Of a stretch of 64,000 nt of DNA, positions 15,769 through 25,019 are shown in pieces. The position numbers were made by a program, and so were the translations under genes. The notes under the pieces were generated by a model. The model was given only the letters and a program-made list of their open reading frames with translations, ran no database searches and was not told where the DNA came from. The DNA comes from Thermanaerovibrio velox DSM 12556. GTDB lineage: Bacteria > Synergistota > Synergistia > Synergistales > Synergistaceae. The stretch is from the NCBI RefSeq assembly GCF_000237825.1, contig NZ_CM001377.1, positions 1,700,276-1,764,275 of the forward strand. Reading direction: 5' to 3'. The number at the start of each line of letters is the position of its first letter. The stretch's first letter is position 1.

Positions 15769-16446
15769 ATGAAGCCCATTCGTATACTCATAACCGAGGA
15801 CGACCCCATGGTGTCCTTCATCATAGGACGGCTCGTCAACTCCCTGGGGGACTTCCTGCTGGTCGGTCAGGCCCAGAACGGCAGGGAGGCGCTGGAGCAG
15901 ATCAGGGCCCACAAGGTGGACCTGGTGCTGCTGGATCTGTCCATGCCGGAGGTGAACGGCAAGGAGGTCATGCTGGATCTTAGGAACAACGGCATGGACT
16001 CCGACGTGATAATAATAACCAGCTCATACCGCAAGGAAGACGCGGTGGAAGCCCTCCGGCTCGGGGCCTGGGACTACATCGTAAAGCCCTTCTCCTACGA
16101 CCGGCTCCGGGTCTCCCTGGACTCCTACAAGGACGCGTTCCGCTTCCGGGCATCCCTCCCGTCGGAGCTAAGCCAGGAACAGCTGGATCGGGTCTTCTAC
16201 CCCGAGAGCCGGCTCAACCTCTACTCCACCTCGGGGATCCAGCGGGGCGACACCGCCCAACGCATAATGGACGTACTGACCCAGGAGGAACGCCCCCTCT
16301 CCGCAGGGGAGATAGCGGACAAGATCGGCATATCCCGCATAACCGTCCGCAAGTACTGCGAGGCCCTGGTATCCACAGGAAGGCTGATATCCCAGAACCA
16401 CTACCAGCCCAAGGGACGACCCATAAAGAAATACCAGCCCATATAG
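15769..16446 (+). CDS. Response regulator, CitB/DcuR-like
   Basis: A 225-aa two-component regulator. The receiver domain (1-120) has the acidic pocket TEDDP, phospho-acceptor D56 in LLDLSMP, and K106 in VKPF. The C-terminal DNA-binding part (about 160-225) is a helix-turn-helix (AGEIADKIGISRITVRKY), the layout of the CitB/DcuR/DctR group that controls organic-acid uptake. ATG 15769 is 11 nt after GGAGG; an in-frame GTG at 15757 lies inside the ribosome site and is rejected. A hybrid kinase follows 19 nt downstream, so the pair is one system. Confidence 0.9.
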   Translation: MKPIRILITEDDPMVSFIIGRLVNSLGDFLLVGQAQNGREALEQIRAHKVDLVLLDLSMPEVNGKEVMLDLRNNGMDSDVIIITSSYRKEDAVEALRLGAWDYIVKPFSYDRLRVSLDSYKDAFRFRASLPSELSQEQLDRVFYPESRLNLYSTSGIQRGDTAQRIMDVLTQEERPLSAGEIADKIGISRITVRKYCEALVSTGRLISQNHYQPKGRPIKKYQPI

Positions 16447-16465: not shown

Positions 16466-18178
16466 ATGGCCCTTAAAATAGATCTGGAGGATGTCCCTCA
16501 CCCAGCCGTGCTTTTCCCCCCCGGCGGGACCCCAATGGGGGCTAACTCCAAAGGGGAGGAGTTCCTGGCCACCTTTGGCTGGGATGGTCCGGCCCCAGCC
16601 GGGGAATCCGTATCCATAGGGGGTAGGCGGTTTTTCCCCGTAAGGCTCGCATCTCTACCGAGGGGAGATGTCTTCGCACTGGTGGAGGAGTCGTGTCCTC
16701 CCACAAGGGACCTCTTCATATCCCAGATAAGCCACGAGATAAGAAACCCCTTGAACAACATCATAGGCATGTCCGAGATGTGTCTTTCCGCGGAGAGCCC
16801 TAACCGGAGGTGGCTTGAGTGCATAAAGGAGGCCTCGAGCCACTTGCTTAGGATAGCCAACGACCTGCTGGACCTGTCCTCCGCCAGAAACGACCTGGAG
16901 CTCCGGCTTGCCCCCTATGAGGTCCGCAAGCTCATATCAAACACGATCCGCTTCGTGGCCCCCATGGCGGAGGCCAAGGGACTCATCCTTTTAACCAAGA
17001 TAAGCCCCTCGCTGCCCAAACTGCTGAACGGAGACCAGGACAGGATAAGGCAGATCCTGCTCAACCTGCTCACCAACGCCATAAAGTTCTCGGAACAGGG
17101 CAAGATAACCGTAGAGGCCACCATAGAAGGCTCGGATCTCGTCATATCCGTCACCGACAGCGGCCGGGGAATACCTAAAGAACAGCTGGACAAGATATTC
17201 CTCCCCTTCTACCAGACGTCCCCTTCGGACCGGGGACAAGGGCGGGGACTGGGGCTTGCCATATGCATGAAGCTTGCGGAGTCCATGGGGGGCACCATCT
17301 CGGTTCAAAGCGTCCCCGGCAAGGGGTCCTCTTTCTCCCTAAAGGTGCCCGCGGCGGAAGCGGAGGGGCAACCCGCCTCCTTCGAGGACGCCCAGAAGGC
17401 CCAAACCCTCCACGCGGCCCCCGACTCAAGGCCCCTGCAAATACTCCTGGCGGAAGACGACCCCCTCAACCGGGAACTGGTTCAAACCGCCCTATCCGCC
17501 ATGGGACACTCGGTGAAATCCGCGTCCACCGGCATGGAGGCCCTCCGGGCCTTCTCAACCCATCGTTTCGACCTGGCAATACTGGACGTGAACATGCCAC
17601 AAGGGGACGGGGTCTGGCTTGCAAGACAGATACGGCTCCTGGAGTCAAAAGACCCCTCGCGGGCAAGAACCCCCCTCATAGCCCTCACCGCCTGCGCCAC
17701 GGAGGAGGACCGGCAGCGGTGCCTCAAGGCGGGGATGGACCTTTTTCTCACGAAACCGGTCCCCCTGGCGGAGCTGAAGGCCGCGGTTGAGGGAGCCGCC
17801 GGCGGAGGCAACCCCGCAGGATCGAGGGCAGATGCCCCCGCAGTGGACACCCAGCGGCTAATGGACCTCTCCTCCGGGGAGCTGGAGGTGGTTGGCAAGG
17901 CCCTCACCCTCTTCAAGGAGGGGGTCCCCATAATGTTGGAGACATTGCGGCTTCTGCTGCACCGAAACGACCTTAACGGCGCCGCGTCGGTGGTCCACAA
18001 GCTCAAGGGCCGGTTTGCCACGGTGGGGCATCAGGAGGCGGCGGAATACCTGGCGGCCCTGGAAGACCGACTCAAGAAAGGCCAAGGGGATGACCCGGAC
18101 CAAGTGATAAGCCGGATCAACCAGGCCACCAGGGAGGTGCTCGCGGCCTACGAGGCCATAAACATCAAGCCGATTTAA
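16466..18178 (+). CDS. Cytosolic hybrid histidine kinase with receiver and Hpt domains
   Basis: A 570-aa soluble kinase with no membrane helix. A short N-terminal PAS-like segment (1-78) is followed by HisKA with phospho-His90 in SQISHEIRNPLN and HATPase_c with N-box NLLTNAIKFS, DSGRGIP and GRGLGLAI. A receiver domain follows (AILDVNMPQGDG, about residue 370), then an Hpt domain with His near 511 (VVHKLKGRF). It is a full internal phosphorelay that could pass phosphate to the adjacent regulator. The location immediately upstream of the molybdenum-hydroxylase operon suggests it senses an intracellular state linked to that pathway, which is inference. Confidence 0.9.
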   Translation: MALKIDLEDVPHPAVLFPPGGTPMGANSKGEEFLATFGWDGPAPAGESVSIGGRRFFPVRLASLPRGDVFALVEESCPPTRDLFISQISHEIRNPLNNIIGMSEMCLSAESPNRRWLECIKEASSHLLRIANDLLDLSSARNDLELRLAPYEVRKLISNTIRFVAPMAEAKGLILLTKISPSLPKLLNGDQDRIRQILLNLLTNAIKFSEQGKITVEATIEGSDLVISVTDSGRGIPKEQLDKIFLPFYQTSPSDRGQGRGLGLAICMKLAESMGGTISVQSVPGKGSSFSLKVPAAEAEGQPASFEDAQKAQTLHAAPDSRPLQILLAEDDPLNRELVQTALSAMGHSVKSASTGMEALRAFSTHRFDLAILDVNMPQGDGVWLARQIRLLESKDPSRARTPLIALTACATEEDRQRCLKAGMDLFLTKPVPLAELKAAVEGAAGGGNPAGSRADAPAVDTQRLMDLSSGELEVVGKALTLFKEGVPIMLETLRLLLHRNDLNGAASVVHKLKGRFATVGHQEAAEYLAALEDRLKKGQGDDPDQVISRINQATREVLAAYEAINIKPI

Positions 18179-18224: not shown

Positions 18225-18252
18225 CCATCCCCCCTTGGAAAGGGGGGATTGG
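18225..18252 (+). promoter_or_regulatory. Hairpin enclosing the ribosome site of the first hydroxylase gene
   Basis: C6 (18229-18234) pairs with G6 (18242-18247), extended by TT/AA and AT/AT. The G6 arm is the Shine-Dalgarno for TTG 18255, and TTTTG follows directly. It can be read as a terminator of the two-component genes or as a switch that hides the ribosome site. Confidence 0.6.
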
Positions 18253-18254
18253 TT

Positions 18255-18728
18255 TTGTCCATAGGCTTCACTTTGAACGGCCGGGAGGTCCGCTTCTGCC
18301 CCTCCCCCAAACAGCGGCTGCTGGACATGCTGCGGGAGCTGGGGATGACCAGCGTCAAGGAGGGCTGCTCCGAGGGGGAGTGCGGGGCCTGCACGGTGGT
18401 AATGGACGGCGAGCCCGTGGCATCCTGCACCGTCATGGCCTTCCAGGCGGAGGGATCCCGGATAGTAACCCTGGAGGGGCTGGCAGAGAAGGGGCTGCTT
18501 CACCCCATCCAAAGGGCCTTCGCGGAGCACGGGGCGGTGCAGTGCGGCTTCTGCACCCCGGGGATGATAATGGCCCTGTATGCCCTCCTCGTGAAAAACC
18601 CCTCCCCCACCAGGGAACAGGTGGCGGAGGCGATATCCGGCAACCTGTGCCGATGCACCGGGTACCTGCCCATCATAGAGGCCGCCATGGACGCCTCCAG
18701 GAGGATCGATGCCCATGCTGCGCCTTAG
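18255..18728 (+). CDS. Molybdenum hydroxylase, [2Fe-2S] subunit
   Basis: A 157-aa XdhC/CoxS-type iron-sulfur subunit of the xanthine-dehydrogenase family. Both clusters are intact: plant-type C38, C43, C46, C58 and the alpha-helical cluster C97, C100, C132, C134 (CGFCTPG, NLCRCTGY). It relays electrons from the molybdenum site to FAD. Start TTG 18255 is chosen because the G6 ribosome site lies 7 nt upstream and the family begins right there (ISFTLNG-like). Its end overlaps the FAD-subunit start by about 14 nt. Confidence 0.92.
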   Translation: MSIGFTLNGREVRFCPSPKQRLLDMLRELGMTSVKEGCSEGECGACTVVMDGEPVASCTVMAFQAEGSRIVTLEGLAEKGLLHPIQRAFAEHGAVQCGFCTPGMIMALYALLVKNPSPTREQVAEAISGNLCRCTGYLPIIEAAMDASRRIDAHAAP

Positions 18729-19549
18729 ACCCAAGAGCTTGGGAGAGCTCGTAGAGCAGGTCCTGCAGGCCCCCCACGGGCTTCCGATACATCGCCGGGG
18801 GGACGGACCTCACCATAAGGATTCACCTTGATGGCTTAGACCTCCACCTGGCGGACATAACCTCCCTGGAGGATCTAAAAGGGATCTCCCTCTACCCCCA
18901 TGGGTACCGGGTGGGCTCCACCGTCACGTTCTCGAGGATAAGCGCTTCAAATCACCTTCCCGGGGGCCTTCGGGCCATGGCCTCCAAGGTGGGGTCCCCC
19001 CAGATAAGGAGCCGGGGAACCATGGGGGGCAACGTGGGGAACCTGTCCCCCGCGGGGGATGCGATCCCCATGCTGATGGCGCTAAACGCCACCATGGAGG
19101 TGCTTCAGTTCCAGGAGGAAGCGGTGATCCCCGGGTCCATCCCCATGGGGGACATGAAGCCCGGCCCCTTCGGGGTTCTACCGGGCCCCAGGGACCTCAT
19201 AACCGGCTTCTCCATCCCCCGATGGGACTTCTCCCACTTCGGCAAGGTGGGGTCCCGGAGGACCGTGACCATATCGAAGCTCAGCGTGGGCTGTGCCCTC
19301 GACCGAGGTGGGAAAAGGTGCCGGCTGTACCTTGGAGCGGTTGGATCTCTCCCCATCCGGTGCGGCGAGGCGGAGGACGCCATCGTGAACCTCTCCGGCC
19401 GAGAGCTCCTGGCGGAGCTCCCGGCAATCCTGTCCCGGGCGGTGGAGAGGGCGATACCCAACAGGGCCTCCATGCCCTACAAAAGGGAAGCGGTAAAGGC
19501 TCTGGGACTTGAACTGGCCCAGGACTTGGTTTCCGAAGGGGGGGTCTGA
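18715..19549 (+). pseudogene. Molybdenum hydroxylase, FAD-binding subunit, frameshifted
   Basis: The CoxM/XdhB-like subunit. Its first ~20 codons (MLRLRPKSLGELVEQVLQ) run from ATG 18715 (or 18709) into a C6 run at 18770-18775. The rest, RYIAGGTDLTIRIHLDGL onward, is in the next frame. Deleting one C gives APTGFRYIAGGTDL and a normal ~277-aa protein. FAD motifs are AGGTDL and SRGTMGGNVGN. The open frame alone would start at 18911 and lack the first FAD loop. Intact genes on both sides suggest a recent change or a sequencing error. It sits within the S-M-L gene order of one enzyme complex. Confidence 0.85.
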
Positions 19550-19550
19550 G

Positions 19551-21815
19551 ATGAGCCGCTGGAACTGGATTGGCGTATCCGTGCCCCGGCTGGACGGGCT
19601 CCAGAAGGTGACCGGGGAGTTCCTATTCCTGGAGGACCGGGGAAGGCCAAAGGGGCTCCTGTACGGCCGCCTCATCACAAGCCCGGTGGCCAACGGCATA
19701 GTGCACGGATTCAGGACTGAAAAGGCCAAGGGGATAGGGGACCTGGTCAGGATCTTCACCCCCATGGACGACCCCATGAGGACCCCTTACAACAGCTCCG
19801 TGTACCTGGACGACCAGCAGGACCTAAGGGACGAGAGGATATTCACCGACCGGCCCCTCTTCCTGGGTGACCCGGTTGGGGCGGTGTTGGCGGAGACCCC
19901 GGAGGGGGCCCTGCGGGCCGCTCAGGCGGTGGAGGTGCTTGTCCAGGAGCTGCCCCCGGTTCTGACCCCCCTCAAAGAAGGGGTCCCTTCTCCGCTCCCC
20001 AAGAAGCCCCGGTTCATAGAGGGAAGGATCGCATGCGGAGAAGACCCGCCCCCCATGGAGGGGACGGTGGAGATCGCGGTAACGGTCCGCACCCCCAAGG
20101 TCCACCACGGGGCCATGGAGAACCACATATGCCTGTCCTACATGGACGGTCCGGTGCTGACGGTGGAGTCCCCGTGCCAGATGCCCTTCACGGTGCGCCA
20201 CGCCCTGTCCAAGGCCCTGGGGCTTCCCATGAGCCGAATAAGGGTGATAAAGGCCCCCATGGGGGGCTCCTTCGGGGGGAAACAGGAGGTCTTCCTGGAG
20301 ACCCGATGCGCCCTCATGACCCTCCTAACCGGCAGACCCGTGCTGCTCAAGACCAGCAGGCGGGAGAGCATCATATCCACCAGGAGCAGGGCCGCCGTGG
20401 AGGGTACCGTCAGGATGAGGGCGCTTCCGGATGGCACGTTGCTCAGCCGCTCCGTGGAGGTGCTGTGCGACTCCGGGGCCTACGCCACCGGGGGACACCG
20501 GATAACCATGGCCATGGGGAAGAAGACCTTCAGGCTCTACCGCATACCCCGTCAGGAGTTCGTGGGCCGCACTTACTTCACCAACACGGTGCCCAGCGGG
20601 GCCTGCAGGGGCTACGGCTCCCCTCAGATTCACGCCATAACCGAGATAGCTCTGGACCTGCTGGCCCGGAAACTCCACATGGACCCGGCGGAGCTCAGGC
20701 TCAAGAACCTGGTCCACCCCTTCGACCTGGACCCCACCGGGGCTCCCCCGCTTGGGAACGCCCGGGTCAGGGACTGCCTTGAGGAGGGGCTCCGGGCCTT
20801 CCGCTGGGAGGAGCGGAAGCGGCACATCCTGGGATCCAGAGGTGACGGGAGGTTCAAGACCGGCATAGGCCTCGCCTGCTGCACCCACGGCAACGGCTAC
20901 TACGGGTCCCCCTTCGCGGACGTGATGGGCATGACCATAAGCCTCTGCGAGGACGGTTCCGTCCTGGTCAACGGGGCCTTCGAGGAGCTGGGCAACGGCA
21001 CCATGACCGCCATGACCCAGATAGTGGCGGACGCCATGGACCTACCCCTGGAGCGGGTCTTCGTGGCCGAGGCGGACACGCACCTCACCCCCTTTGACGT
21101 GGGCTGCGTGGCCAGCCGGGTGACCCACGTGTGCGGCGCCTGCGCCCTGGAGGCGGCGCTCAAGCTCAGGTCCCGGATAGCAAGGGCATTCCTCGCCCTT
21201 AACGGCATAGGGCAGGACCGGGCGGACCAGGTGGTGTTCCAGGACGGGGTGGTTAGCATGGATGGCCTGTCCATGAGCTACGGCTCCCTGGCCAGCAGGT
21301 CGACAAAGGAGCTGGGGGATATCCTGTGGGAGAACGTGATCTTCAAGCCCCAGGGGAACCCCGCCTCGTACGCGGTACACTTCGCCCAGGTGGAGGTGGA
21401 CACCCTGACGGGGCTCGTCCGGGTCACGGACTACCTGGCCTGCCACGACGTGGGACGGGCCATAAACCCCATGATGGTGAAAGGCCAGATATACGGGGGG
21501 GTCCAGATGGGCATCGGGTTGGCCCTCATGGAGGAGATCCGCTACGACAAAAGGGGGGTACCCCTCAACGGGTCCTTCAGCAGGTACCACATGCCCAACG
21601 GCCCGGAGATGCCGGACATAAAGGTGATGTTGGTTGAAAGGGGGGAGGAGGGGGGGCCCTTCGGGGCCAAGAGCGTGGGGGAGATAGCCACCGTTCCGGT
21701 GGCGCCCGCCATATGCAACGCGGTCAACATGGCCGTTGGAACCAAAATGACGGAGCTGCCCTTCACCCCAGAGCGGATAGTGGGGGCACTGCGTTCCAGG
21801 GGGGATGGGGATTGA
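19551..21815 (+). CDS. Molybdenum hydroxylase, molybdopterin-binding large subunit
   Basis: A 754-aa catalytic subunit of the xanthine dehydrogenase/aldehyde oxidase family, which adds oxygen from water to a carbon next to nitrogen in heterocycles or to an aldehyde. Cofactor and active-site motifs are intact: APMGGSFGGKQE (about 230-240), MENHICL, SGACRGYGSPQ and the catalytic-Glu loop GAKSVGE near residue 710. ATG 19551 follows the FAD-subunit stop by one base. The substrate cannot be read from sequence; the lyase homologue and betaine carrier downstream point to an imidazole-type intermediate. Confidence 0.92.
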   Translation: MSRWNWIGVSVPRLDGLQKVTGEFLFLEDRGRPKGLLYGRLITSPVANGIVHGFRTEKAKGIGDLVRIFTPMDDPMRTPYNSSVYLDDQQDLRDERIFTDRPLFLGDPVGAVLAETPEGALRAAQAVEVLVQELPPVLTPLKEGVPSPLPKKPRFIEGRIACGEDPPPMEGTVEIAVTVRTPKVHHGAMENHICLSYMDGPVLTVESPCQMPFTVRHALSKALGLPMSRIRVIKAPMGGSFGGKQEVFLETRCALMTLLTGRPVLLKTSRRESIISTRSRAAVEGTVRMRALPDGTLLSRSVEVLCDSGAYATGGHRITMAMGKKTFRLYRIPRQEFVGRTYFTNTVPSGACRGYGSPQIHAITEIALDLLARKLHMDPAELRLKNLVHPFDLDPTGAPPLGNARVRDCLEEGLRAFRWEERKRHILGSRGDGRFKTGIGLACCTHGNGYYGSPFADVMGMTISLCEDGSVLVNGAFEELGNGTMTAMTQIVADAMDLPLERVFVAEADTHLTPFDVGCVASRVTHVCGACALEAALKLRSRIARAFLALNGIGQDRADQVVFQDGVVSMDGLSMSYGSLASRSTKELGDILWENVIFKPQGNPASYAVHFAQVEVDTLTGLVRVTDYLACHDVGRAINPMMVKGQIYGGVQMGIGLALMEEIRYDKRGVPLNGSFSRYHMPNGPEMPDIKVMLVERGEEGGPFGAKSVGEIATVPVAPAICNAVNMAVGTKMTELPFTPERIVGALRSRGDGD

Positions 21816-21817
21816 CC

Positions 21818-23320
21818 GTGACGTTGGGAGAGGGCCCCATAGGGGTTGAACAGGTTGTGGCGGCGGCGTTTGGGGAGCCCGTCAGCGTGTCCGGCGAAGC
21901 TCTGGCCCGCTGCAGGGCGGTTTGGAAGGCCCTGATGGACATAGCGGACCGGGGGAACCCAAAGGTCTACGGGCTCAACACCGGGGTGGGGATAAACAAG
22001 GACCAGACCGTGACCCGGGAGAGCTACGGGGTCTACAACCTCAACATGCTCAAGGTCCACTGCGTGGGGCTCAGCCCCTACGCCTCGGCGGAAGAGGCCC
22101 GGGGGACCATGTTCCTCAAGCTCCACCACCTGGCCATGGGCTACACCGGGATAACCCCCGGCTACGTGGAGCTCCTAAGGGAGATGTTGAACCGGGGGAT
22201 ATACCCCGCCATCCCGCTGCGGGGGTCCGTCGGGGAGGCGGATATAACCTCCCTATCCCACCTGGGGCTGGTGATGGCCGGGGAGGGCTTCGTCATGGAC
22301 ACCCAAGGGCTCCGCCCCGCCGGGGAGGCCTTGAGGGAAGCGGGACTACAACCCATCAAGCCGGGCCCCAAGGACGGGCTGGGGCTTGTGACCTCCAACG
22401 CCCTGGGAGAGGCTCTGGGGTGTCTTGCGCTGCACCGGGCCAAGTCCCTCATGGACCTGGCGGACCTGTCCTATGCGATGACCCTGGAGGGCTTCCATGG
22501 GAACCTGTCCCCCCTGGACGAGAGGGCCCTGGCGCTCCACCCCTCCAAGGGGGTCAAGGTCACCGCTTCCAACGCAAGGCGGTTCCTGACGGGAAGCTAC
22601 CTGGAAGGGGGGGCCAAATCCCTTCAGGACCCCCTGTCCATAAGATGCTCCCCCATGGTCCACGGGGCGGTAAGGGATGCCTTGAACGCCGCGGAGGAGG
22701 CCCTCACGGGGTACATCAACACCCCGGACGACAACCCCCTGGCCTTCGAGGACGGCACCGTAATCCCCTGTGCGCTTTTCGAACCCCTGGGGTGGGTCTT
22801 GGAGTTCGAGAAGCTGAAGGCCGCCCTCTGCCACCTGTCCCAGACGGTGGCCCGTAGGACCCTGCGGCTCGGCTCTGACCGGTTCACCGGGCTTCCCCGG
22901 TTCCTCAACCCATGTACATCCATGTGCCACGCCTTCGGGGTAATCCAGAAGACCGTGTCTTACCTTCAGGCGGAGAACCGGCATCTAAGCAACCCCTGCT
23001 CCTTCGACGTGGAGTCCCTGTCGGAGGACCAGGAGGACCGGGGGTGCAATACCCCCATGGTGATGGACCACCTCAAGAGGATGTTGGACAACCTCGAGGT
23101 GATGCTGGCCATAGAGATCCTCCACGGGGCCCAGGCCATGGACATGAGGGGGGCCTCCTATGGAAGGGGGACCTCCAGGGCCCTAGGGAAGCTCAGGGAA
23201 AGGGTGCCCTTCATGGATGAGGATAGGGACCTCTCGCTGGACGTGGCAAGGGCGGTGGAGGCGGTGAGATCCGGGGAGCTGATCGAGGCTGCCAGATCCC
23301 CCTGGGGATGCGGGGGGTGA
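21818..23320 (+). CDS. Aromatic ammonia-lyase-fold protein lacking the MIO triad; ergothionase-like candidate
   Basis: A 500-aa member of the HutH/PAL superfamily by overall pattern: YGLNTGVG (Tyr51), QDPLSIRCSPMVHG (270-283), DDNPLAF (304-310), QAENRHLSNP and an all-helical C-terminus. The Ala-Ser-Gly that cyclises into the MIO electrophile is replaced: GSVGASGD becomes GSVGEADI (136-143). The active-site GNFHG block reads ALFEP (319-323). It is therefore not a classical histidine ammonia-lyase. Known MIO-less relatives include ergothionase, which eliminates trimethylamine from ergothioneine. The BCCT carrier downstream fits a betaine substrate. GTG 21818 starts two bases after the preceding stop. 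Confidence 0.85.
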   Translation: MTLGEGPIGVEQVVAAAFGEPVSVSGEALARCRAVWKALMDIADRGNPKVYGLNTGVGINKDQTVTRESYGVYNLNMLKVHCVGLSPYASAEEARGTMFLKLHHLAMGYTGITPGYVELLREMLNRGIYPAIPLRGSVGEADITSLSHLGLVMAGEGFVMDTQGLRPAGEALREAGLQPIKPGPKDGLGLVTSNALGEALGCLALHRAKSLMDLADLSYAMTLEGFHGNLSPLDERALALHPSKGVKVTASNARRFLTGSYLEGGAKSLQDPLSIRCSPMVHGAVRDALNAAEEALTGYINTPDDNPLAFEDGTVIPCALFEPLGWVLEFEKLKAALCHLSQTVARRTLRLGSDRFTGLPRFLNPCTSMCHAFGVIQKTVSYLQAENRHLSNPCSFDVESLSEDQEDRGCNTPMVMDHLKRMLDNLEVMLAIEILHGAQAMDMRGASYGRGTSRALGKLRERVPFMDEDRDLSLDVARAVEAVRSGELIEAARSPWGCGG

Positions 23321-23423
23321 TTGGAGGGCAAACGGTTTTCCCTAGGCATTGGGTTTGGGGTTGACGACACAGCGCGTCGTGTTTGGTCGAAATCTTCTGT
23401 ATCAGGGGAAGGGAGGAGTAGGG

Positions 23424-25019
23424 ATGATATCCAAGGAAGGGATGAGGATAAGGGGAGAGGTCTTCTACCCCATGGCGGCGATATTCCTTGGGGCCATAGC
23501 CCTTGGGGTCTTAGCACCGGAGGCCTTTTACAAGGCCGAGTCCGCCATAGTGGAGTTCGCTTTCGTCAAGTTCGGCTGGCTCTTCCAACTCTCCAGCGTG
23601 ATGTTCCTCGGGATCTGCATTTACCTTGGGCTGTCCAAGTACGGGGATATAAAGTTCGGCGGGAAGGACGCCAAACCCACCCTAACGGACTGGCAGTGGT
23701 TCTCCATATCCCTCTGCGGAGGCATCGCCACCGGCATCCTCTTCTGGGGAATCGCGGAGCCCATCACCCACTTCATGAGCCCTCCGGACTTCCTGGGCCT
23801 CAAGCCCGGGACCGAAGGGGCCGCCATGTTCTCCATGACCACCACCTTCATCCACTGGACGTTCATCCCCTACGCCATGTACGCCATAGCGGGGCTTGGG
23901 ATAGCCTACTGCGCCTACAACATGAAGCTGCCCTACGCGGTGAGCTCCACCCTCTACCCCCTGTTCGGCCGGAGGGCCACGGGGCTCACCGGAGCGGTGG
24001 TGGACAACATATGCCTCCTCGCCATAGCCGGAGGGGTCGCGGCGGTGCTGGGGGTGGGGGCCATGCAGGCGGGAAGCGGACTTAACAGCCTCACGGGGAT
24101 AAAGACCGGCAAGACCGTGTGGGCCGCGGTGCTGGCTATCACCGTGTCCATATACATCATATCCTCCTACTCGGGGATAATGAGGGGCATAAGGATACTG
24201 TCGGACTACAACGCCAAGATATTCCTCTTCATGATGCTCTTCTTCTTCGCCGTGGGCCCCACCAGCTTCATCCTTAACCTCGGGGTCCAGGGCTTCGGGC
24301 ACTTCATAAACCACTTCTTCGAGCGGACCATGTACCTATCCCCCATAGACGGCAGCCCCTGGCCCAGGTGGTGGCCCGTGTACTACTGGGCCATCTGGCT
24401 GGCCTATGCCCCCCTCATAGGCATGTTCCTGGCGAGACTCTCCTACGGCAGGACCATAAGGCAGTTCCTGCTCTTCAACCTGGTGCTCCCCTCGGTGTTC
24501 GGCCTCGTCTGGTTCTCCATCTTCGGGGGCAGCGCCATCTACTCCCAGATCCACGGGGGCAAGATATGGGAGTCCATCCAGGGCTCCGGCCTTGAGGTCT
24601 CGGTGTTCGCCTTCCTGAAGAACGCCCCGCTGGGGGTCCTGTGGTCATGGGTTTTCATAGCGGTTCTGATACTCTCCATCGTCACCCTCTGCGACTCCAT
24701 GACCACCACCGTGGCATCCCTGTCAATGAGCGGATCCCACATGGAGGGCAAGGAACCCCCGGCGAGGATGAAGATATTCTGGGGCGTGGTCATGGCCTCC
24801 ATGGCCATAATCAACCTCCTGAGCAGCTCCGGCAAGATCTCCGGCATAGACGCCACCAAGCAGATCGCCACGGTGGCGGGCTTCCCGATACTGTTCTTCA
24901 TGTGCCTCATGGCCTTTGGGACCGTGAGGGCCATAGTCAAGGGCATGGGGGAGACGGTGGAAGACCAGGAGGAGCTCCGGGGAGCATTGGAAGAGGAAGG
25001 GGCGGAGGAGGCCATATAG
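23424..25019 (+). CDS. BCCT family betaine/carnitine/choline-type transporter
   Basis: A 531-aa carrier with about 12 helices. The BCCT signature is clear: a Trp-rich stretch (WWPVYYWAIWLAYAP) followed by GMFLARLSYGRTIRQF. The glycine-rich stretch of helix 3 reads GGIATGILFWGIAEP, departing from the BetP-type GMGIG motif, so ion coupling may differ. Family substrates all carry a quaternary ammonium. As the last gene of the hydroxylase-lyase operon it probably imports the compound broken down. ATG 23424 follows a GGGAGG ribosome site. The 103-nt gap after the lyase gene holds a small hairpin (ACGAC..GTCGT). Confidence 0.92.
   Translation: MISKEGMRIRGEVFYPMAAIFLGAIALGVLAPEAFYKAESAIVEFAFVKFGWLFQLSSVMFLGICIYLGLSKYGDIKFGGKDAKPTLTDWQWFSISLCGGIATGILFWGIAEPITHFMSPPDFLGLKPGTEGAAMFSMTTTFIHWTFIPYAMYAIAGLGIAYCAYNMKLPYAVSSTLYPLFGRRATGLTGAVVDNICLLAIAGGVAAVLGVGAMQAGSGLNSLTGIKTGKTVWAAVLAITVSIYIISSYSGIMRGIRILSDYNAKIFLFMMLFFFAVGPTSFILNLGVQGFGHFINHFFERTMYLSPIDGSPWPRWWPVYYWAIWLAYAPLIGMFLARLSYGRTIRQFLLFNLVLPSVFGLVWFSIFGGSAIYSQIHGGKIWESIQGSGLEVSVFAFLKNAPLGVLWSWVFIAVLILSIVTLCDSMTTTVASLSMSGSHMEGKEPPARMKIFWGVVMASMAIINLLSSSGKISGIDATKQIATVAGFPILFFMCLMAFGTVRAIVKGMGETVEDQEELRGALEEEGAEEAI

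Follow-up and report, generated by a model that had tools for sequence, protein, structure and literature searches.

What is broken down by a compact set of five genes, encoding a three-subunit molybdenum enzyme, a lyase and a BCCT carrier, in the 1.88 Mb single-contig genome of Thermanaerovibrio velox DSM 12556 (Synergistota)? We analysed a stretch of 64,000 nucleotides of this genome (contig NZ_CM001377.1, positions 1,700,276 to 1,764,275), hereafter the window, to which the feature coordinates below refer. The five-gene set is very probably a genuine operon for the breakdown of ergothioneine, kept across relatives and belonging to a kind that was described recently. We consider it probable that the route consists of import, loss of trimethylamine and desulfurisation, with urocanate passing to the Hut pathway. 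The BCCT carrier would import ergothioneine, and an ergothionase independent of the 4-methylideneimidazol-5-one (MIO) cofactor would eliminate trimethylamine to give thiourocanate. The three-subunit molybdoenzyme, a member of the xanthine-oxidase family (XO), would then release the thione sulfur reductively as H2S. The resulting urocanate would be carried towards glutamate by the separately encoded HutU, HutI and FtcD. Gene content, homology, conserved linkage, the linkage of hut genes in relatives and the hut genes of the host were computed, and they serve below to infer substrate, reaction direction, transport and regulation. The features of the locus are as follows.

15769 to 16446, + strand: response regulator with a C-terminal helix-turn-helix, DcuR/DpiA-like (Pfam Response_reg and HTH_11)
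16466 to 18178, + strand: hybrid histidine kinase with HisKA, HATPase, receiver and Hpt domains (Pfam, hydrophobicity scan)
18227 to 18249, + strand: hairpin that spans the likely ribosome-binding site of the small-subunit gene
about 18255 to 18728, + strand: [2Fe-2S] small subunit (Pfam Fer2 and Fer2_2)
18715 to 19549, + strand: flavin adenine dinucleotide (FAD) subunit gene, frameshifted as sequenced (ATG at 18715, stop at 19549; FAD_binding_5 on the 3' part)
19551 to 21815, + strand: molybdenum-binding large subunit, proposed thiourocanate desulfhydrase (Pfam MoCoBD_1/2)
21818 to 23320, + strand: MIO-less PF00221 lyase, very probably an ergothionase (best PDB and fold match 6s7j, motifs, tree)
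23424 to 25019, + strand: BCCT carrier, proposed ergothioneine importer (Pfam BCCT)

Judged from its sequence, the lyase is very probably an MIO-independent ergothionase (ergothioneine trimethylamine-lyase) that falls inside the ergothionase clade. Its best match in the PDB was the ergothionase of Treponema denticola (354 bits), followed by histidine ammonia-lyase (206 bits), and its predicted model (mean pLDDT 82) returned 6s7j as the top fold match (TM-score 0.92, 39% identity), with ammonia-lyases coming after. The Ala-Ser-Gly triad that forms MIO is replaced by GSVGEADITSL, compared with GSVGASGDLCPL in the genome's own HutH, which bears out the label 'MIO-less' given in the earlier note made from the DNA letters. 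Accordingly lacking this triad, the lyase also stayed below the cut-off of the HutH model (307 bits vs 539). The lyase shares the ergothionase motifs NKD, IQKT and ED with 6s7j, with N60, K61, D62, Q377, K378, E406 and D407 invariant, whereas ammonia-lyases have neither NKD nor IQK. In a tree of 104 rows, a fully supported split set the 100 NKD-bearing lyases, among them those of T. denticola and the window, apart from the ammonia-lyases. Within this clade, the window lyase belongs to an eight-row Synergistota subclade in which Ile, Val or Ala replaces the Trp before NKD and Arg follows ED.

Such differences from the T. denticola enzyme next to conserved motifs might point to another trimethylated betaine as the substrate, namely hercynine or an oxidised form of ergothioneine, for instance the sulfonate. 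We regard this as improbable, since the canonical lyase subtype, too, is found with XOs of the same sub-clade as the window's, and the carrier is common to canonical-lyase loci (63% identity). Hercynine was rejected on a further ground: the lyase would convert it directly to urocanate, leaving the XO without a job. Ergothioneine thus appears to be the substrate, and the proposals of the earlier note, namely betaine import, trimethylamine elimination by an MIO-less homologue of histidine ammonia-lyase (HAL) and ergothioneine as first choice, seem right on these comparisons.

A third lyase subfamily was seen adjoining ergothionase clusters. These HAL-like proteins carry GSVGY(L/I)xxEAH, with the MIO-forming Ala-Ser-Gly deleted outright, and were found at L104 (8188-9723, +), L114, L116, L118, L079/L041, L043, L100, L123 and L129. 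Their closest solved structures are ammonia-lyases (276 bits) and not ergothionase (197 bits), and they possibly catalyse another MIO-independent elimination.

The gene set is conserved as a unit. Among 80 named lyase loci from one scan of species genomes, the XO large subunit lay within 10 kb of the lyase at 60 and BCCT was linked at 56, with both present at 52. This linkage spans Synergistota, Bacillota, Spirochaetota and Calditrichota, and the recurrence of the same set across phyla is more than chance would give. In Synergistota, the gene order small subunit, FAD subunit, large subunit, lyase and BCCT, or a close variant, recurs. [Clostridium] symbiosum, which is reported to have ergothionase activity, has XO, lyase and BCCT genes beside molybdenum-cofactor and XdhC genes (L084). 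The co-occurrence that the earlier note expected was therefore found; the condition on which it would have given up its reading, unlinked hydroxylase, lyase and BCCT genes in relatives, does not overturn it.

Two departures from the common arrangement were observed. In a variant cluster (L173, L175 and L176, in G017, G013 and G011, respectively), an XO of the same clade occurs with a YfcC-type carrier in place of BCCT; the XOs of these three genomes, which had first seemed unlinked, adjoin a divergent, Pseudochrobactrum-like ergothionase subtype. About half of the 20 loci without XO belong to cyanobacteria or aerobes, e.g., Pseudochrobactrum. At the XO-less loci L131-L134, L071 and L086, a distant urocanase homologue (31-33%) lies near the ergothionase. 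The aerobic ergothioneine route of the Burkholderia type proceeds through ergothionase and then thiourocanate hydratase, and these loci fit that route.

For the molybdenum enzyme, Pfam supports XO-family [2Fe-2S], FAD and molybdenum-binding subunits. A single clade of 85 rows unites the XOs encoded beside ergothionases; it includes the large subunit of the window and also holds homologues from gut anaerobes. Within this clade, the XOs nearest to that of the window are found with at least three different subtypes of the lyase. The most likely substrate of the XO is therefore the product common to these lyases, thiourocanate. The fate of this product is indicated by the hut genes. HutU lay within 20 kb of the ergothionase in 8 of 21 Synergistota genomes, compared with 0.56 expected; it should be noted that the genomes, which represent four genera, are not all independent and that one of the eight lyases (G036) is interrupted by an internal stop. 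In Sporomusa, Blautia, Clostridia, Tissierellales and Spirochaetia loci, the neighbours of the cluster likewise include canonical HutU, with about 69-76% identity to that of the host, or HutI/FtcD. At L104, HutU, the small, FAD and large subunits, ergothionase, BCCT, a second lyase and HutI form a single packed run. From this linkage, urocanate is the expected product of the XO, so that the enzyme would remove sulfur and not add a hydroxyl group.

The earlier note had instead proposed that the enzyme hydroxylates the ring, and oxidative hydroxylation of thiourocanate (or urocanate), as xanthine dehydrogenase performs on purines, would suit an enzyme family in which most members are oxidative hydroxylases (PMC12771579). 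The best NCBIfam model was indeed XdhA, although the enzyme stayed below its equivalog cut-off (518.5 bits vs 780), and the catalytic Glu motif GAKSVGE is retained in the large subunit. However, several lineages carry canonical urocanase and other hut genes in linkage with the cluster, and the closest solved structure of the large subunit is the reductive 4-hydroxybenzoyl-CoA reductase. Furthermore, Feng et al. (JACS 2025, as relayed by PMC12771579) reported a gut-bacterial XO homologue that reductively cleaves a C-S bond in the catabolism of ergothioneine itself, and a second paper describes the thiourocanate desulfhydrase of the same authors as releasing H2S in gut anaerobes (PMC13405746). 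Given the hut linkage and this reductive precedent, we set oxidative hydroxylation aside as quite unlikely, and the hydroxylation step of the earlier note is probably wrong. Its statement that no pathway with this exact set had been described is likewise wrong or outdated, insofar as the work of Feng et al. is represented in these two papers. Its interpretation therefore holds for the substrate and the first two steps, and fails where it claims ring hydroxylation, a complete enzyme (see below) and an undescribed pathway.

The two enzymes could also act in the reverse order, with the XO desulfurising ergothioneine to hercynine and the lyase then forming urocanate. The gene set and the final products would be identical. 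We consider this very improbable, as the lyase clade includes a characterised ergothionase that acts on the thione (6s7j) and the described desulfhydrase, in the account of PMC13405746, acts on thiourocanate. A metallopterin-dependent ergothioneine synthase was tried as a further candidate and ruled out. That enzyme is a dimethyl sulfoxide reductase-type module fused to a cysteine desulfurase and occurs with EgtD (PMC9516567); the window encodes XO-type domains, and the EgtD family is absent from the host genome.

One segment of the large subunit deserves mention in its own right. Residues about 350-356 read GACRGYG, with a Cys preceding the conserved Arg in 60 of the 90 alignment rows, and the corresponding segment of 4-hydroxybenzoyl-CoA reductase is GAMRGHG. 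By homology with xanthine oxidase, we take this segment to lie near the molybdenum site, and its Cys could bear on sulfur removal.

Desulfurisation to urocanate is also compatible with the gene content of the host, where HutH-FtcD-HutI lies at 943-948 kb and HutU at 1,228.9 kb. Together with an XdhC chaperone, these genes suggest that the genome is able to use urocanate and to mature such a molybdenum enzyme. No MttB was found in the genome, so trimethylamine is probably excreted. Neither ergothioneine synthesis through EgtD nor trimethylamine use of the MttB type is thus apparent in the host.

The earlier note called the three-subunit hydroxylase complete. As sequenced it is not, because three-frame translation placed a +1 frameshift in the FAD-subunit gene at about 18770-18775: the frame from the ATG at 18715 stops early, and the AGGTDL FAD motif and the remainder lie in another frame. 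Alignment with two sister genomes, in both of which the gene is open, showed one extra base beside the C6 run at 18770-18775. The frameshift may be a sequencing or assembly error or a real recent lesion, and which of the two holds decides if this strain has the complete route. If the lesion is real, the operon would be decaying, and the pathway would stop at thiourocanate, released with trimethylamine for other bacteria. The one base more than in the sister genomes would fit such decay, which is also compatible with the preferred explanation of the operon's origin. We think decay possible but doubtful, considering that every other gene is intact and conserved, that the sister genes are open and that the extra base adjoins a homopolymer, a common site of sequencing errors.

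Several points weigh against an ergothioneine-catabolic operon. With the characterised ergothionase the lyase shares only 39% identity, and it belongs to a subclade with altered residues before NKD and after ED. The FAD subunit carries a frameshift as sequenced, and the hut genes of the host lie far from the operon. In addition, the enzyme of Feng et al., known here through the two papers that report it, is presumed to belong to the same clade as that of the window.

The carrier is likely a dedicated ergothioneine importer, as suggested by its sequence and gene neighbourhood. Pfam places it in the BCCT superfamily, and it stayed below the glycine betaine BCCT equivalog cut-off (394.9 bits vs 650). 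Its box in transmembrane helix 8 (TM8) reads YYWAIWLAYAP (WAIWLAY), compared with FYWAWWIAWSP (WAWWIAW) in a trimethylamine carrier. Eleven Synergistota BCCTs, including that of the window, are at least 64% identical and lie beside the lyase, the next best being 44%; in G175, an assembly break within the lyase gene leaves the BCCT on another contig. Members of this subfamily (about 58-68%) are also found with ergothionases in Alkaliphilus, Clostridium and others. We lean slightly towards the view that, in Synergistota and Bacillota alike, this importer subfamily (YYWAIWLAYAP) has stayed together with the reductive XO as one lyase subtype replaced another. The literature consulted yielded no description of a dedicated BCCT ergothioneine importer, and for BetP of C. 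glutamicum a role in ergothioneine transport has merely been suggested (PMC12689799).

The response regulator and hybrid kinase lie directly upstream of the five genes on the same strand, as the earlier note had described, and probably control the operon. No hydrophobic segment was found in the kinase (highest mean over 19 residues 1.24), so the label 'cytosolic' is fair. The pair is conserved upstream of the operon in both sister genomes, with the response regulator 93-96% identical at the same position. Between the kinase and the first structural gene, the hairpin ATCCCCCC-TTGGAAA-GGGGGGAT has a strong C6/G6 stem. It occurs once in the whole genome and was found at the matching place in both sister genomes, and is thus conserved in the genus. 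Rfam models found no family in the window, and the region wider than the hairpin folds no better than shuffles (z -1.44); for the latter reason, a role of the hairpin over the ribosome-binding site is put forward as a suggestion. The hairpin and the BCCT subfamily are the least described parts of the operon.

The antioxidant ergothioneine is widely consumed in food. Its conversion to trimethylamine and H2S by anaerobes is relevant to the chemistry between diet and microbes. The conserved gene set would provide a genomic marker for distinguishing complete breakdown to urocanate from release of thiourocanate. It would extend the pathway from gut bacteria to Synergistota, Sporomusa, Alkaliphilus, Calditrichales and spirochaetes, and names an importer family that can be tested. 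If our reading of the carrier is true, it would be the first member of the BCCT family to be dedicated to a thione betaine, and ergothioneine breakdown all the way to urocanate would be common in strict anaerobes far outside the gut. A 2026 paper judged ergothionase to be restricted to a few genera, based on a single BLAST search (PMC13405746). One pattern scan in our study found 166 relatives of the lyase, suggesting that the enzyme is not so restricted.

Compared with known systems, the window lyase shares with the T. denticola ergothionase (6s7j, 6s7q) the fold, the loss of MIO and the motifs NKD, IQKT and ED. It differs in overall sequence, in having Ile for the Trp before NKD, and in having Arg where the T. 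denticola enzyme has His after ED. For the XO, 4-hydroxybenzoyl-CoA reductase (1rm6) offers a reductive precedent within the family; however, it sits on a very long branch outside the ergothionase-linked clade and has GGGFGAR where the window enzyme has GGSFGGK. The carrier shares the BCCT fold and a Trp in TM8 with BetP/TmaT, whereas its TM8 box assigns it to a separate subfamily, whose Synergistota members occur only at ergothionase clusters. The aerobic Burkholderia-type route has its first step in common with the window operon, and XO-less loci such as that of Pseudochrobactrum have a distant urocanase homologue (31-32%) instead of the XO. The closest counterpart in gene content is the gut pathway of Feng et al., as far as the two papers describe it, which likewise pairs a lyase of the ergothionase type with an enzyme of the XO family; the same gene set occurs in C. 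symbiosum and Blautia. The operon of T. velox differs from it in phylum and habitat, in its divergent lyase subclade, in its own two-component system and in a BCCT of another subfamily than those of C. symbiosum (37%) and Blautia (36%).

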